Source: Opitutus terrae PB90-1
Lineage (GTDB): Bacteria > Verrucomicrobiota > Verrucomicrobiia > Opitutales > Opitutaceae
Assembly (NCBI RefSeq): GCF_000019965.1
Contig: NC_010571.1
Span: 1,674,001-1,738,000, forward strand
Length of the DNA stretch: 64,000 nt
Direction of reading: 5' to 3'
The notes below the pieces were generated by a model. The model did no database searches, was not told the DNA's origin, and saw only the letters and a list, made by a program, of their open reading frames with translations. Each line of letters starts with the position of its first letter. The first letter of the stretch is position 1. This document shows, in pieces, positions 23,201 to 38,046 of this stretch. The position numbers were made by a program, and so were the translations under genes.

Positions 23201-23230
23201 GAAAAGATAAGGGGATGCGTGTGCGGGGAG

Positions 23231-23326
23231 GGCGGGTTGTTCTCAACCCGCCGCGGGCTGGCGGGAATTTCGGACTGAGCTTCACTCCTGTTCATGAAAT
23301 TTCCGGGTTAGGGATAACGCGCCCTA
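23231..23326 (-). repeat. Double-hairpin element supplying the GH27 stop codon
   Basis: On the minus strand it starts TAGGGCGCGTTATCCCTAAC (23326 downward). The second hairpin, GGCGGGTTG/CAACCCGCC, is at 23231-23239 and 23244-23252. The TAG is the GH27 stop. The TTAGGGATAACGCGCC half-site is identical to one in the copy buried in the GH115 gene (35521-35542). Confidence 0.7.
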
Positions 23327-25087
23327 TCTTGGCGACAGCCGGTACAACCCGGCGCCGTGGAAGGGAATTTCCGGCGCGAACTCGCGTTCGACGGTGCCGA
23401 GATCGCGATGAGCCCAGAGATCGCGGACGTGTGTGCCTTGCGGCAATCCGAGCTCGGACAGACTCACGGCCACCGGCAGACCGGCGGCTTTGCTTTCGTT
23501 TTCCGGGGTGGCGACCACAACGAGAAAGCGAACCGGTCCGGGCTCGTGGCCGCGACCGTTGCTCTCGACGGACGCTTGCGCGCGGAACCGGACGGCATCC
23601 CGCGGTAGAGCGAATTCCACGAAGGCGGGGATCTCCGCGCCGATGCCGATCGGCTGGCCGGCGGCGTCCTTTTTGACCGCCGTGCTGTCCCAGGCGGCGT
23701 CGGCGTGCGCCCACGTGAGTTCGGTCAACGGCTGCTCCTTGCCGTCGGCGAATACCAGGCGCGGGGCGCGCCAGAGGATGCGGTTCCACTCGCCGCTCGT
23801 TTCGGCCGGCTCGGCGGAGAGGAAGAGCTTGGTGCCGCCGGTGACGTCGGCATCGACGGCTGCGCCGGCACCGGAGCGCACGGACGGGCTGACATAGCGG
23901 GCGTTGGCGGGAGTGCGGCGGACGCGATCGCGGGTGTTGAACACGGCGAGATATTTGTCGGCGGAGCCCGGCACGTCGGCGACCCAGGCGATCAGTTGAT
24001 CGCGATCGAACAGGGGCCGGTTGTTTTCGCTCTGCTGGTTGACGGCGAGCACCTCATCGTTGGTGAGCAGCGAAAGCGTGAAGTCGTCGGTCTTCGTCAG
24101 GTCGCCGCCGTGCATGAGCGGCGACCGGGCGATGGACCACAGCGTCATCAAGGTGCGCTGCTCGTCCGGCGTGAACCGGGTGATGCGCGTACCGAGATTG
24201 AGCACGCCGAGCGGCAGCATGTCGGCGTCGGGCCAGGCGCCCGTGACGCGATGCGGATTCCACGCGGCGAGCCGGCCGAATTGGTCGCGCAGCGCGAGCC
24301 AGCGGTCCCAGAAGTCGTCGCTGATCCGCCAGAGGTTCGCGTGGTCGCGCACGTGAGCGGCGGCGGTGAGCGCGGTTTCGCCGGGCGACAGGCTGAGCAC
24401 GATCGGCCGGCCGGTGCGATCGATCGCGCGCCGGATCGCCTCGATCTCCGACTCGTGCTCATGATACGGCCGCGAGATGTCGTCGACCTTCACGTAGTCA
24501 ACGCCCCACGCGGCGATCAGCGCGAACACGGAGTCGTAATACTCCTGCGCGCCGGGCTTCGTCAGATCGACGCCGAACATGTCGGGATTCCACGGGCAAA
24601 TGCTGGCGCGATTCGCGATGTCCTGTGCACGTACGCTCGTGCCCTTCACCGGCAGGTTCCTCTCGACGGCCTGACGCGGGATCCCGCGCATGAGATGGAT
24701 CCCCATCTTCAGTCCGAGCGAATGAATGTAGTCGGCGAGCGGCTTGAATCCCGCGCCCTCCGCGGCGGACGGGAAACGGTTGAGCGCCGGCGTCAGCCGG
24801 CCGAACTCGTCCATCGTGAGCGTGGCGTCGCTGCGGTAGGCGTGGCTCTTGGCGCCCGGCTCGTACCACTGGATGTCGACGACGACATACTGCCAGCCGT
24901 GCGATTTCAGTTGGGCCGCCATGAAGTCGGCCTGCTGCTTGGTCTGCTCTTCGGTAATGGTGGTGGCAAAGTTGTCCCAGCTGTTCCAGCCCATCGGCGG
25001 CGTCGGCGCCCAGGAACGGAAGGCGGGCGCACCGGCGTGAACCGCGGAAGCCAAAGTCAGCGGGAGAAGAAGCGTGATCAATTTCAT
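23324..25087 (-). CDS. GH27 alpha-galactosidase
   Basis: Secreted enzyme of 587 residues; the start at 25087 gives signal peptide MKLITLLLPLTLASAVHA. The GH27 TIM barrel has PTPPMGWNSWDNF at residues 29-40, VVVDIQWYEPGAKSH, MGIHLMRGIPRQAV, and the nucleophile in DYVKVDDIS (Asp202). The acid/base region is ISDDFWDRW. The barrel is followed by beta domains; a C-terminal domain (about 400-587) resembles a carbohydrate-binding beta-sandwich. It should remove alpha-galactosyl ends. Its stop codon lies in a palindromic repeat, and the spacer before it holds a CACAGAT inverted repeat (25176-25262). Confidence 0.92.
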   Translation of the reverse strand: MKLITLLLPLTLASAVHAGAPAFRSWAPTPPMGWNSWDNFATTITEEQTKQQADFMAAQLKSHGWQYVVVDIQWYEPGAKSHAYRSDATLTMDEFGRLTPALNRFPSAAEGAGFKPLADYIHSLGLKMGIHLMRGIPRQAVERNLPVKGTSVRAQDIANRASICPWNPDMFGVDLTKPGAQEYYDSVFALIAAWGVDYVKVDDISRPYHEHESEIEAIRRAIDRTGRPIVLSLSPGETALTAAAHVRDHANLWRISDDFWDRWLALRDQFGRLAAWNPHRVTGAWPDADMLPLGVLNLGTRITRFTPDEQRTLMTLWSIARSPLMHGGDLTKTDDFTLSLLTNDEVLAVNQQSENNRPLFDRDQLIAWVADVPGSADKYLAVFNTRDRVRRTPANARYVSPSVRSGAGAAVDADVTGGTKLFLSAEPAETSGEWNRILWRAPRLVFADGKEQPLTELTWAHADAAWDSTAVKKDAAGQPIGIGAEIPAFVEFALPRDAVRFRAQASVESNGRGHEPGPVRFLVVVATPENESKAAGLPVAVSLSELGLPQGTHVRDLWAHRDLGTVEREFAPEIPFHGAGLYRLSPR

Positions 25088-33662: not shown

Positions 33663-34319
33663 ATGCGAAAGGTCACGGGCATCGCGGGAAAAACTCACGA
33701 GCGGCTGGAAAGTTACGCGCAAAGGATCGCCGTTCGCCGGTGGGAGTCGCGCCGGTCGACCGGGACGTCGCACTACTACGTCGACGGCGTGGAGTGGAAT
33801 CCGCTCACCCCGACCACGTTCCTCGATGGCCGGGCGGATCTCACGGCGGGCGTGTTCGCGATCACGCCGTTGAACGCGAACCCGAAGACCATCGAACCCG
33901 ACTCGTTCCTGCTGGTGGTCGAGATCAGCGAGCCGGCGCTGAGCAGTCGCGAACAATGGACGATCACACACTTTGCCGTGCGCGACGCGACCGGTGTGGC
34001 GTCGGGCCGCGAGGCGGAGCCCGCCGTCCCGTTTGGGTTTCACCGGCCGTCACGGCCCGAGATAGCTCGGCGTCAGCCCGCCGAGGTCGATCACGACCTT
34101 GTCGAGCACCACGCCGGTTTGGATGCCGTAAATTTTCAACGCGTGCTCGCCCGCCTGCGGCACCGCGAGTCGCAGGCGGGCGACTCGCGTGGCGTTGAGC
34201 ACGCCTTGCGCCCATTCAGGTCCGCCATCGCCGATCTCGAGCGTGACCAGTTGAGGTGGCGCGTCGTCGAGCGCGACGGCGAAGCGCAGCGCGGTGCCGC
34301 TGATCGGATGCGTCGGTAG
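33663..34319 (+). CDS. Uncharacterised protein or gene fragment
   Basis: I do not recognise this frame. The first 125 residues (MRKVTGIAGKTHERLESYAQ onward) have a protein-like composition and GC-rich third positions, with a GTSHYYVDGVEWNPL stretch and a DSFLLVVEISEPAL strand. After about 34050 the frame runs antisense through the end of the GH115 gene, where it is probably only a shadow, so the true product may be shorter or a truncated remnant. It could be a spurious frame. Nothing in the neighbourhood suggests a function. Confidence 0.3.
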   Translation: MRKVTGIAGKTHERLESYAQRIAVRRWESRRSTGTSHYYVDGVEWNPLTPTTFLDGRADLTAGVFAITPLNANPKTIEPDSFLLVVEISEPALSSREQWTITHFAVRDATGVASGREAEPAVPFGFHRPSRPEIARRQPAEVDHDLVEHHAGLDAVNFQRVLARLRHRESQAGDSRGVEHALRPFRSAIADLERDQLRWRVVERDGEAQRGAADRMRR

Positions 34320-36656
34320 CAAATACGCTTGCAGCGTGAACTCTCCCGCGGCGGGAAAGTTGACCGCGTGTTCGAGCCGGGGCGCTGAGGCTTCGGCTGC
34401 AGCGAGGTCAATGTCGGCAACGGTGGCCGGCAGCACGGTGACCGCTTCACGCGTGCGGCCGAGTCTAGGAACGCGCATCCAGGTCACGCCAGTCGGCGAT
34501 GGATGTGAGGCGAACGAGCCTGCCTCGATCGCGATGAACGTGCCTGGCGGCGGATCCGGAACCGGCGCGCGGGCGGAGTCAGGCGGCGTCCACGCCTCGA
34601 TCCGCATCGATGCCCACTGCTTGTCCGCGGGCTCGAGCGTCATCATGCCGCGCCATTTTCCACCGGCGATCTGTTCGTTGTAAACGCGCGTGAGCTCCAC
34701 CAAACCGGCGTCCGCCGCACGCGCCGCGTCCTTGTTGCCGCGCTCGCCCTCGAAAAAGCGTTGGTTCGCGAGGGCCGAACCCGCGACCGGATAGTACACG
34801 AGCTGGAAGAACGCGTCGCGCTGGTCCGGTCGCATGTGCGTGCGCAGTGTTTCGACACGCGCGCGGAGCCGGGCAAAGGCCTCGAGCCGTGCCTGCACTT
34901 CGCCGTCCGTCAGTGGACTCGCTCGCCGCGGCTGCTTCGGCAGCCACCACTGGAGATGCTCCGGTCTGCGCTGGAAGTTCAGCCGGTAGTACTCGTCGAG
35001 GATCGAAGCGATCTCGCTCGCGTGCTGCGGGCCGAACTCACGCGCCGTCCACTCCGGGAGAAACGTCGCCAGATTGTCCGCACTCCAGCGGTCGATGTCC
35101 CAGGCCATTTGGAGAAAAAACTCGGTGCCGATCTCCGCCGGCTTCAGATCGCCGACGTTGGCGATCCAGATCCGATCGGCGCCGTGTTGGTAGGCCTTGT
35201 GCATCTCCTCCCAGACGAGCGCCGGCGGCGTCGTGCTGAGCCACAGATACGAGAGCGGCCGGCCGAGGTAGGAGAGATGATAGTAAATGCCGAAGCCACC
35301 CGACCGGCCGCGCTCGGCTGCCGTGGCGAAGTTGCGGATGTAGCCGAAGTTGTCGTCGGGCCAGACGATCGTGACATCGTCGGGCACGCGCAGCCCTTGG
35401 CGATAGAGATCGAGCACTTCCTTGTAGGCGCAGAACATCTGGGGGGTGCCGTCGGAGCGCGTGAGGTAGGGCGGATTATCCCTAATCCGCCGTCCATCGT
35501 CGGTTGCGGCGTCCGGGCTCGGCGCGTTAGGGATAACGCGCCCCACCTCGGGCCGTACATGTCGCGCAATCAGCGCGCGCTGGTCGGCGAAGACCCGCTC
35601 GAGCGTGCGAATCCGTTCGGCGTCGGTCTTGGGCCCGACCATGTTAGAGTCGTGGATGCCGCGCATCCCGAGCGTGTAGATGGCTTCGTAGCGCCCGTTT
35701 TCCGCGACCCGCTCCTCCCAGTAGCGGAGAACGCCTTCGCGATTCGTCACGTAGTTGTAGTCCTCCTTGGGCGCGGTCCACTCGTCGACGTTGTTGCGCA
35801 GCATCGGCTCGGCGTGCGACGAGCCCATGACGATCCCGTAGGCGTCGGCGACCTCCTTGTTGCGCGGGTAGTGGTTGAACGCGCGCGTGGTCGGATGCAT
35901 CGCCGGCCAGACGGTGTTGGCCTTCAGCCGGAGCAAGAGCTCGAAAAGTTTCGCGTAGGTTTTGGGGCCGATGTCGCCGGTCTCGGGCTCGAAGGTCTTC
36001 GCGGCCCACGGCTGCAGCCCCCAGTCTTCGTCGTTGAGGAAGACGCCGCGGTATTTCACCGACGGTGGGCCGAACCGGTGCGTGCCCGTGGCGATCGCGA
36101 GTGTGCTCCGCTTGGGCACGGGCACGTCCGCCCACCAATGCCAGGGCGAGACGCCAATCGCCGCCGAGACCTCGTAACAGCCGTAGATCGCGCCGCGCCG
36201 GTCGCTGCCGGCGATGACGAGCGCGCGCTCGACTCCGGGGAACGGCGTGTGCACGACGGCGATCACGAAGCTTTCCCACGCGCCGACAAGTGCGCGCAGA
36301 TCGAGCTTCTTCTCGGCGGCGAGCCGGTCGAGCAGCGAGCTTTTCCCGGCCACTGCGACGAGCACCAGGGCCGGGCGGGCAGCTGGAGAAAGCTCATGTC
36401 GCAGCGCCGGCACGACATTGCTGACTCGCTCGATGTCGGCGCGCAGATCGTCGACCGCGCGCGCAACCGCTGGATCCGTGCCGGGCTCCAGCACGAACAC
36501 CGCGGCGCCCTGTTGGTTCGCCAGGATGAAGTCGTCAGCGCGGGGTGACGGAGTGAGCAGCGCGGTCTGCGCGCTGAGCTGCTCGATGCATGCCAGCGCG
36601 CTCAGCACGAGCGCCAACCGAATCGGGAGAGAGGCGCGAATCATCGCGTGACTCAT
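34050..36656 (-). CDS. GH115 xylan alpha-glucuronidase-type enzyme
   Basis: Secreted protein of 868 residues with signal peptide IRLALVLSALACIEQLSA. Family landmarks: an N-terminal alpha/beta domain (about 30-170) ending GCYEVSAAIGVSPWHWWADV, a TIM barrel (about 190-500) with KYRGVFLNDEDWGLQPW, NTVWPAMHPTTRAFN, MGSSHAEPMLRNN, YTLGMRGIHDSNM and VTIVWPDDNFGYIRN, then a helical region and a C-terminal beta domain. It should release 4-O-methyl-glucuronic acid from xylan or a similar uronic cap. Residues 371-397 are encoded by an 81-base palindromic element (35466-35546), absent from the expected family sequence, where the protein should go straight to PQMFCAYKEVLD. A start at 36644 is equally possible. 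Confidence 0.9.
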   Translation of the reverse strand: MSHAMIRASLPIRLALVLSALACIEQLSAQTALLTPSPRADDFILANQQGAAVFVLEPGTDPAVARAVDDLRADIERVSNVVPALRHELSPAARPALVLVAVAGKSSLLDRLAAEKKLDLRALVGAWESFVIAVVHTPFPGVERALVIAGSDRRGAIYGCYEVSAAIGVSPWHWWADVPVPKRSTLAIATGTHRFGPPSVKYRGVFLNDEDWGLQPWAAKTFEPETGDIGPKTYAKLFELLLRLKANTVWPAMHPTTRAFNHYPRNKEVADAYGIVMGSSHAEPMLRNNVDEWTAPKEDYNYVTNREGVLRYWEERVAENGRYEAIYTLGMRGIHDSNMVGPKTDAERIRTLERVFADQRALIARHVRPEVGRVIPNAPSPDAATDDGRRIRDNPPYLTRSDGTPQMFCAYKEVLDLYRQGLRVPDDVTIVWPDDNFGYIRNFATAAERGRSGGFGIYYHLSYLGRPLSYLWLSTTPPALVWEEMHKAYQHGADRIWIANVGDLKPAEIGTEFFLQMAWDIDRWSADNLATFLPEWTAREFGPQHASEIASILDEYYRLNFQRRPEHLQWWLPKQPRRASPLTDGEVQARLEAFARLRARVETLRTHMRPDQRDAFFQLVYYPVAGSALANQRFFEGERGNKDAARAADAGLVELTRVYNEQIAGGKWRGMMTLEPADKQWASMRIEAWTPPDSARAPVPDPPPGTFIAIEAGSFASHPSPTGVTWMRVPRLGRTREAVTVLPATVADIDLAAAEASAPRLEHAVNFPAAGEFTLQAYLLPTHPISGTALRFAVALDDAPPQLVTLEIGDGGPEWAQGVLNATRVARLRLAVPQAGEHALKIYGIQTGVVLDKVVIDLGGLTPSYLGP
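35466..35546 (-). repeat. 81-bp double-hairpin element in frame inside GH115
   Basis: Hairpin 1 is GGCGGATTA/TAATCCGCC (35470-35478, 35483-35491, loop TCCC). Hairpin 2 is GGCGCGTTA/TAACGCGCC (35521-35529, 35534-35542, loop GGGA). Outer ends are GTAG and CCAC. It is exactly 27 codons with no stop in the GH115 frame, and adds an Arg/Asp/Pro-rich segment between two conserved blocks. The half-site is shared with 23305-23326. Confidence 0.85.
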
Positions 36657-36877
36657 CCCGGTCGGAGCGGCGATCAGCAAGACGGCGCGGGTCTTACCGT
36701 CCGGCCGGATGGAGCAGAGCACGGCGCCTGGCCGAGATCCTGCCGGCAAGACGGTGGGCGGGACGCTCCGGCGAAATGCCGGTGACTTTTCCCCGAGGCA
36801 GTGACTCACCGCGGGTTGCGCAGGAGGGCGGGGGCGTGGGTTTGCGGAAAGCCGATTCCGGCACTCCTTCCTCGATC

Positions 36878-37890: not shown

Positions 37891-38046
37891 CATTTTCACG
37901 TATTACGTGAAAATGACTGGGGCCACCGGCTGAACCGCCTGTGATTTCGCGTGTAGGGCTCCCGCTCCCGTGGAGGCGGCCTCCTTTCAGGTGATCGAAG
38001 TCGTGGCTTTCGCGGTGCAGGCATTTTCACGTAATACGTGAAAATG
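37891..38046. repeat. Pair of 25-bp palindromes flanking 106 bp
   Basis: CATTTTCACGTA plus TACGTGAAAATG flank one base at 37891-37915 (T) and again at 38022-38046 (A). The two copies are reverse complements of each other. The intervening 106 bases have no gene and contain a GTAGGGCTCCCGCTCCC stretch. The layout suggests either a small non-autonomous element with palindromic ends or a double operator upstream of the cupin gene. Confidence 0.75.

Follow-up and report, generated by a model that had tools for sequence, protein, structure and literature searches.

The GH115 locus and its palindromic insert

The window, meaning the whole stretch of 64,000 nucleotides analysed here, contains an intact open reading frame (ORF) for a GH115 alpha-glucuronidase-family protein, within which lies an 81-bp element composed of two hairpins. 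The relevant features are given below; REP scores are those of the covariance model R1, and both focal REP units are among the 51 units used to build it.

34050..36809, minus strand: GH115 alpha-glucuronidase-family gene, 919 aa, with the insert as residues 422-448 (PF15979, E 1.2e-131; PF17829, E 1.2e-36)
35466..35546, no strand: REP doublet (REPIN), 81 bp, head-to-head with the tags outermost; R1 matches both halves
35466..35493, plus strand: left REP unit, GTAG tag and 9-bp hairpin GGCGGATTA/TAATCCGCC with a TCCC loop (43.8 bits, E 4.1e-7)
35494..35518, no strand: 25-bp spacer separating the two REP units, between the R1 matches
35519..35546, minus strand: right REP unit, GTGG tag and 9-bp hairpin GGCGCGTTA/TAACGCGCC (46.0 bits, E 1.1e-7)
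23227..23254, plus strand: left unit of a second, degenerate REP pair, GGAG tag and hairpin GGCGGGTTG/CAACCCGCC (35.5 bits, E 5.8e-5)
23302..23327, minus strand: right unit of the second pair, with a decayed arm (pattern match with 2 mismatches; absent from the R1 matches at E ≤ 1)

The focal doublet pairs two 28-nt units in inverted orientation, each consisting of a GTAG or GTGG tag and a perfect 9-bp hairpin; with their 4-nt loops, the hairpins occupy 35470-35491 and 35521-35542. The initial annotation had described an 81-bp element with two perfect 9-bp hairpins, a length divisible by three and no stop codon, all of which is borne out by the sequence and the GH115 frame. The GTAG/CCAC ends that it reported are right as letters but are actually two copies of one tag, read as GTAG on the plus strand and GTGG on the minus strand. 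Its match of a hairpin half at 23305-23326 is also real, and corresponds to the degenerate right half of the second REP pair. Five perfect 9-bp/4-nt hairpins occur in the window, against a mean of 0.83 in 200 simulated windows with first-order base statistics, and none of the 200 contained two such hairpins within 90 bp. The single-stranded fold of the focal element is 3.4 SD better than those of dinucleotide shuffles and was equalled by one shuffle in 200. A chance palindrome is ruled out by the hairpin simulation together with the genome copies described below.

The window also holds two 25-bp palindromes of a different type, CATTTTCACGTA(T/A)TACGTGAAAATG, at 37891-37915 and 38022-38046, which have opposite centre bases and starts 131 bp apart. 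With up to 3 mismatches allowed, the genome contains this palindrome at 27 places, against 0 for the control, and 22 of these places form 11 pairs whose members are 66-284 bp apart. It carries no GTAG and is not a REP.

The top sequence and fold matches of the host protein are the GH115 structures 4zmh and 5by3. Read in frame and without a stop, the element encodes VGRVIPNAPSPDAATDDGRRIRDNPPY, residues 422-448 of the intact ORF. The 27 residues that the initial annotation placed between EVGR and a conserved segment are correct in number, but VGR belongs to the element itself and LTRSDGT follows before PQMFC is reached. GH115 matches are present in 58 of 150 genomes (own included), and 38 of 77 homologue ORFs were used in an alignment of 39 rows (A2). 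The insert is absent from all 38, which favours the initial annotation in the presence/absence comparison that it had proposed: the R411-P456 loop, 44 residues long here, measures 7-15 residues in 37 of them and 35 residues, of unrelated sequence, in L124. Among the GH115 matches listed, most are interrupted near query residues 415-425 and pick up again near 448-456, that of G073 (the genome of L124) being continuous. L124 has its own long loop here, and the site therefore gains length by other means too. Scanning 50 GH115 homologue loci with the REP model gave just two weak matches (E 0.13 and 0.43), and a motif scan over 30 loci gave no match in five.

Compared with the commonest homologue loop, of 14 residues, the net gain is 30 residues (90 bp, not 81), and in the solved GH115 structure 5by3 chain residues 336 and 337 are adjacent where the protein here has 30 extra. 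No close relative with an empty site was found among the aligned homologues, which are at most 66% identical over their length, and the insertion junction given here is accordingly approximate. Many homologues have VERVPQ at the insertion site, where the DNA in L129 is GTGGAGCGCGTG. DNA of homologues at the upstream edge of the insert resembles the REP, and the gene may thus already have contained what are now the first 12 bases of the right REP. Judged from these sequences, the inserted length may be 81 bp or up to 90 bp.

An AlphaFold2 model of the GH115 protein has a mean pLDDT of 84.6, and its longest internal stretch with pLDDT below 50 comprises residues 430-452, between a helix (396-417) and a strand (457-460). 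In this model the insert occupies a helix-to-strand loop and is probably flexible. From the geometry of the barrel, the loop would lie on the face away from the active site. Residues Y462, K463, E464 and D485-N487, near the insert and invariant in the 39-row alignment, are all kept here. E464, which lies 16 residues past the insert, is presumably the counterpart of the catalytic E375 of BoAgu115A. Both flanks of the insert show strong codon bias, at 0.28 and 0.33 per codon.

A dispersed REP family and its candidate mover

A DNA search of the genome (one contig, C1, of 5,957,605 bp) with the element returned 43 matches at E ≤ 10, six of which span 78-82 bp (focal included) and one 69 bp. A pattern for one hairpin core gave 55 matches (≤ 3 mismatches; one place counted on both strands) against 5 for its reversed control, and a pattern for a second core gave 46 against 1, with many places common to the two. 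Of the 62 hairpins detected, two with under 7 of 9 pairs were set aside, and 51 of the remaining 60 were aligned (A1). The nine left out comprise six without a GTAG/GTGG-type tag, one palindrome already represented from the opposite strand and two tagged hairpins (553145 and 3110567) omitted by choice. The tag stands upstream of the hairpin and is GTAG in 37 aligned units and GTGG in nine (46 of 51 together), the other five differing. The stems covary: 97% of stem cells are paired, with 39 two-sided changes against 11.6 in shuffled alignments, a result matched in none of 500 shuffles.

R1 identifies at least 83 units in the genome at E ≤ 0.0081, a lower bound in that 150 of 4,998 first-look candidates were scored, and a count in which 51 units match by construction. 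The 83 units form 64 clusters, 19 of which are inverted doublets. Of these doublets, six measure 81 bp and 11 have a length divisible by three; with two of the 19 placed inside genes, there is no evidence in these lengths of selection for divisibility by three. Extending the test beyond the building set, with at most 50 candidates scored per genome, R1 matches at E ≤ 0.01 were found in 84 of the 150 genomes of the family (own included) and in 36 of 49 genera; on the same basis, G003, of the same genus, gave no match. As judged from sequence, the focal element is a REPIN whose family is dispersed over this genome and those of its relatives. The mobile palindromic element that the initial annotation had suggested is likewise supported by the genome copies and by its absence in homologues, which point to movement. 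At three loci (L084, L092 and L115), the predicted upstream ORF stops precisely at the TAG within a REP tag.

A candidate for the enzyme that moves these elements is encoded elsewhere on the contig.

C1:5903630-5904168 (L117:2031-2569): REPtron, in which inverted REPs flank the gene for a REP-associated tyrosine transposase (RAYT); it lies between ORFs named from sequence as mreB-like and mreC-like
C1:5903670-5904152: RAYT ORF, 160 aa, with HLH and YIRRNP motifs (NCBIfam REP_Tyr_transpos, 94.6 bits; cut-off 80)

The RAYT was located from the spacing of REPs; it falls under the Pfam cut-off (19.7 bits against 23) and is missing from the Y1_Tnp matches. It is bracketed by two inverted R1 REPs of 49.1 bits each, which start at C1:5903630 and C1:5904141, 511 bp apart, and the last 12 bases of the ORF overlap the right REP. 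The ORF carries the HxH and Tyr motifs and matches PDB 4er8 (E 9.6e-9), which we take to be E. coli TnpA-REP, a likeness to the TnpA-REP/BIME system of that species. Like REP-RAYT layouts occur in G031, G108 and G140 (loci L353, L354 and L355), where the ORFs were recognised by motif only and the reading frame of that in L355 is broken; a fourth, with weaker REPs (21.3 bits), is present in G060 (L341). The flanking REPs make this RAYT the likely mover of the doublet.

Four Y1_Tnp matches were considered as movers and rejected, there being no R1 REP nearby in any of the loci scanned. At L112, a REP at 5393945 inside sufD lies about 3.6 kb from the Y1_Tnp match at 5390221. The inverted repeat that flanks the gene at C1:576594 is of an unrelated kind. 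At L031:931-1863, a Y1 transposase-like gene of 310 aa is bordered by a different inverted repeat, of the ggggtcaggccgctaatcgttaa type, and resembles the TIR-associated class as described in PMC3733652.

Copies inside other genes

Counting copies across the genome, a check that the initial annotation had proposed, yields many more of them, and ORFs, codon bias and Pfam place at least seven of the 64 clusters within genes. Seven is a lower bound, the other 57 appearing mostly intergenic or at ORF ends as judged from ORFs and codon bias alone. The intragenic doublets are those of the GH115 gene and a GH20-like gene, and single units lie in cysJ, sufD, an LplA/B-type ligase gene, a GH2-type gene and a DUF6298 gene. 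The last three were placed from ORF and Pfam only, and the GH2-type and DUF6298 copies are antisense to their genes.

The five sense-reading intragenic copies are read in one common frame, starting VGRV(I/V)PNAP or VERVVPNAL. No other sense frame is open in the GH20-like and cysJ copies; GH115 and sufD each have one further open sense frame, and the ligase gene has two. The idea that stops force the frame thus holds for two of the five copies only, and stops account for the shared frame in part.

Two of these sites recur in other genomes. The insert in the GH20-like protein is missing from 28 of 29 aligned homologues, and at the same site G108, of another genus, has a 78-bp, 26-codon REP doublet with different stems (L298:2389-2466). 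The in-frame REP of sufD (L112:6946-6973) has a counterpart at the same site in G017 (L267:1705-1732, 32.6 bits), again in an alignment with 29 homologues, and weaker likenesses are seen in L268 (15.8 bits, E 0.34) and, by eye only, in L266. The SufD and GH20-like alignments each used the best 29 homologue loci, of 95 and 80 matching genomes respectively (own included), and the two locus collections overlap (e.g. L133 and L153), so that locus counts are not species counts. The shared sites may reflect either shared descent or parallel insertion. CysJ was set aside as a presence/absence case: its homologue matches also break near the REP, but the inter-domain linker there may vary anyway.

Intragenic GTAG repeats were surveyed by Di Nocera, De Gregorio and Rocco in 2013 (PMC3733652), in whose account Opitutus terrae has the most, and dimers or groups that encode 20-30 residues make up over half of the intragenic inserts across the surveyed species. 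The GTAG REPs described there for O. terrae share with the focal family the tag, short stems, head-to-head dimers and a verrucomicrobium host, as well as the intragenic dimers or groups of that coding length and a TAG in the tag that ends neighbouring ORFs. GTGG is also reported in that paper, for one O. terrae family, and the focal doublet has one GTAG and one GTGG tag. The intragenic GTAG REPs of this genome have therefore very likely been reported already, and the in-frame REPIN in GH115 clearly exemplifies a phenomenon already described, not a new kind. The main text of PMC3733652 does not mention the GH115 gene, which may or may not figure in the ORF list of its Additional file 3. The initial annotation missed the 2013 publication of intragenic GTAG REPs, the identity of the element as a GTAG-type REP doublet and the RAYT.

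REPINs were defined by Bertels and Rainey in 2011 (PMC3116915) in Pseudomonas fluorescens, where, as here, inverted REP doublets are dispersed and REPs are associated with RAYTs. By that account, 14 of 1,067 abundant REP 16-mers overlap genes in P. fluorescens, in contrast to the clusters inside genes here (at least seven of 64). Rickettsia palindromic elements (RPE) and their Wolbachia counterpart are likewise palindromic repeats set in frame in protein genes, here seen in GH115 and the GH20-like protein against their homologues. A comparison with the Rickettsia elements, which the initial annotation drew, had already been made for intragenic repeats in 2013 (PMC3733652). It holds for in-frame insertion but not for class: the intragenic R. 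conorii repeats are classed in that paper as CGTC-tagged, a type without transposase association, whereas the focal element has a GTAG/GTGG tag and a RAYT. The focal REPIN thus works like an RPE but stands outside the CGTC class, a distinction drawn by tag.

Origin and fate of the GH115 insert

We are highly confident that the focal element is a REPIN that, most likely moved by a RAYT, landed in the GH115 gene and survived as an in-frame loop insert. The RAYT, a Y1/HUH single-strand transposase, would recognise the tagged hairpins in single-stranded DNA, and would cut and rejoin them, copying or moving the doublet in trans. The E. coli and S. maltophilia TnpA-REP enzymes are described as acting on tagged single-stranded REP hairpins and cleaving at CT (PMC8266576). 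According to the same source, E. coli REP stems need a mismatch bulge, whereas the stems here are mostly perfect, like the S. maltophilia type as described there. By analogy, the RAYT encoded in this genome probably moved the focal doublet, one copy of which would have landed in the GH115 gene. Three properties would have let it persist: a length of 81 bp that preserves the frame, a REP body that can be read through without a stop, and a position in a loop between helix and strand. The insertion appears recent, and the enzyme presumably still works. These data fit the suggestion of the initial annotation that the element tolerates insertion in coding DNA.

Could the insert instead be a native GH115 loop that evolved slowly, is palindromic by accident and does not move? 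The length of this site does vary, L124 having 35 residues, but copies of its DNA unit are found at many unrelated positions across the genome, both of its hairpins are perfect and the scan of 50 homologue loci yielded the two weak REP matches alone. This origin can scarcely be credited, and was rejected from the homologue loop lengths and the REP scan of the homologue loci. A different view is that the insert is neutral as the GH115 gene is dispensable or dead. Other GH115-like matches in the genome (C1:2568151 and C1:5637081), 43-45% identical, could buffer its loss; against a dead gene are the intact ORF, the retained invariant residues and the strong codon bias flanking the insert. We regard this view as unlikely.

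The initial annotation also allowed that such an element exploits its place in coding DNA, the hairpins acting in the GH115 mRNA or the peptide having a selected role in the protein. Consistent with this are the single frame of the five sense-reading copies, and the occurrence of a REPIN at one GH20-like site in two genera and of a REP at one SufD site in at least two genomes. However, the frame is partly forced, and its chance among the open frames, about 1 in 12, is weak evidence; moreover, the insert is modelled at low confidence and just seven of 64 clusters are intragenic by the criteria used. Exploitation is accordingly quite improbable, and survival of a RAYT-moved REPIN as a tolerated loop is the reading that we prefer.

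A tentative extension, which we hold to be doubtful, is that in the Opitutaceae RAYT-moved REPINs repeatedly enter coding genes, at the same sites across genera, and stay as coding sequence. If this is true, the stop-free frame and the common 81-bp length would make the REPIN family a recurrent source of new loops in conserved enzymes and not an occasional accident. The GH115 case indicates that a conserved catalytic domain can accept a mobile hairpin pair of 27 residues near invariant residues in sequence. It also links the insert with a candidate enzyme encoded in this genome, making the entry of REPs into genes testable in one organism. The two insertion sites shared with other genera are the part worth pursuing.
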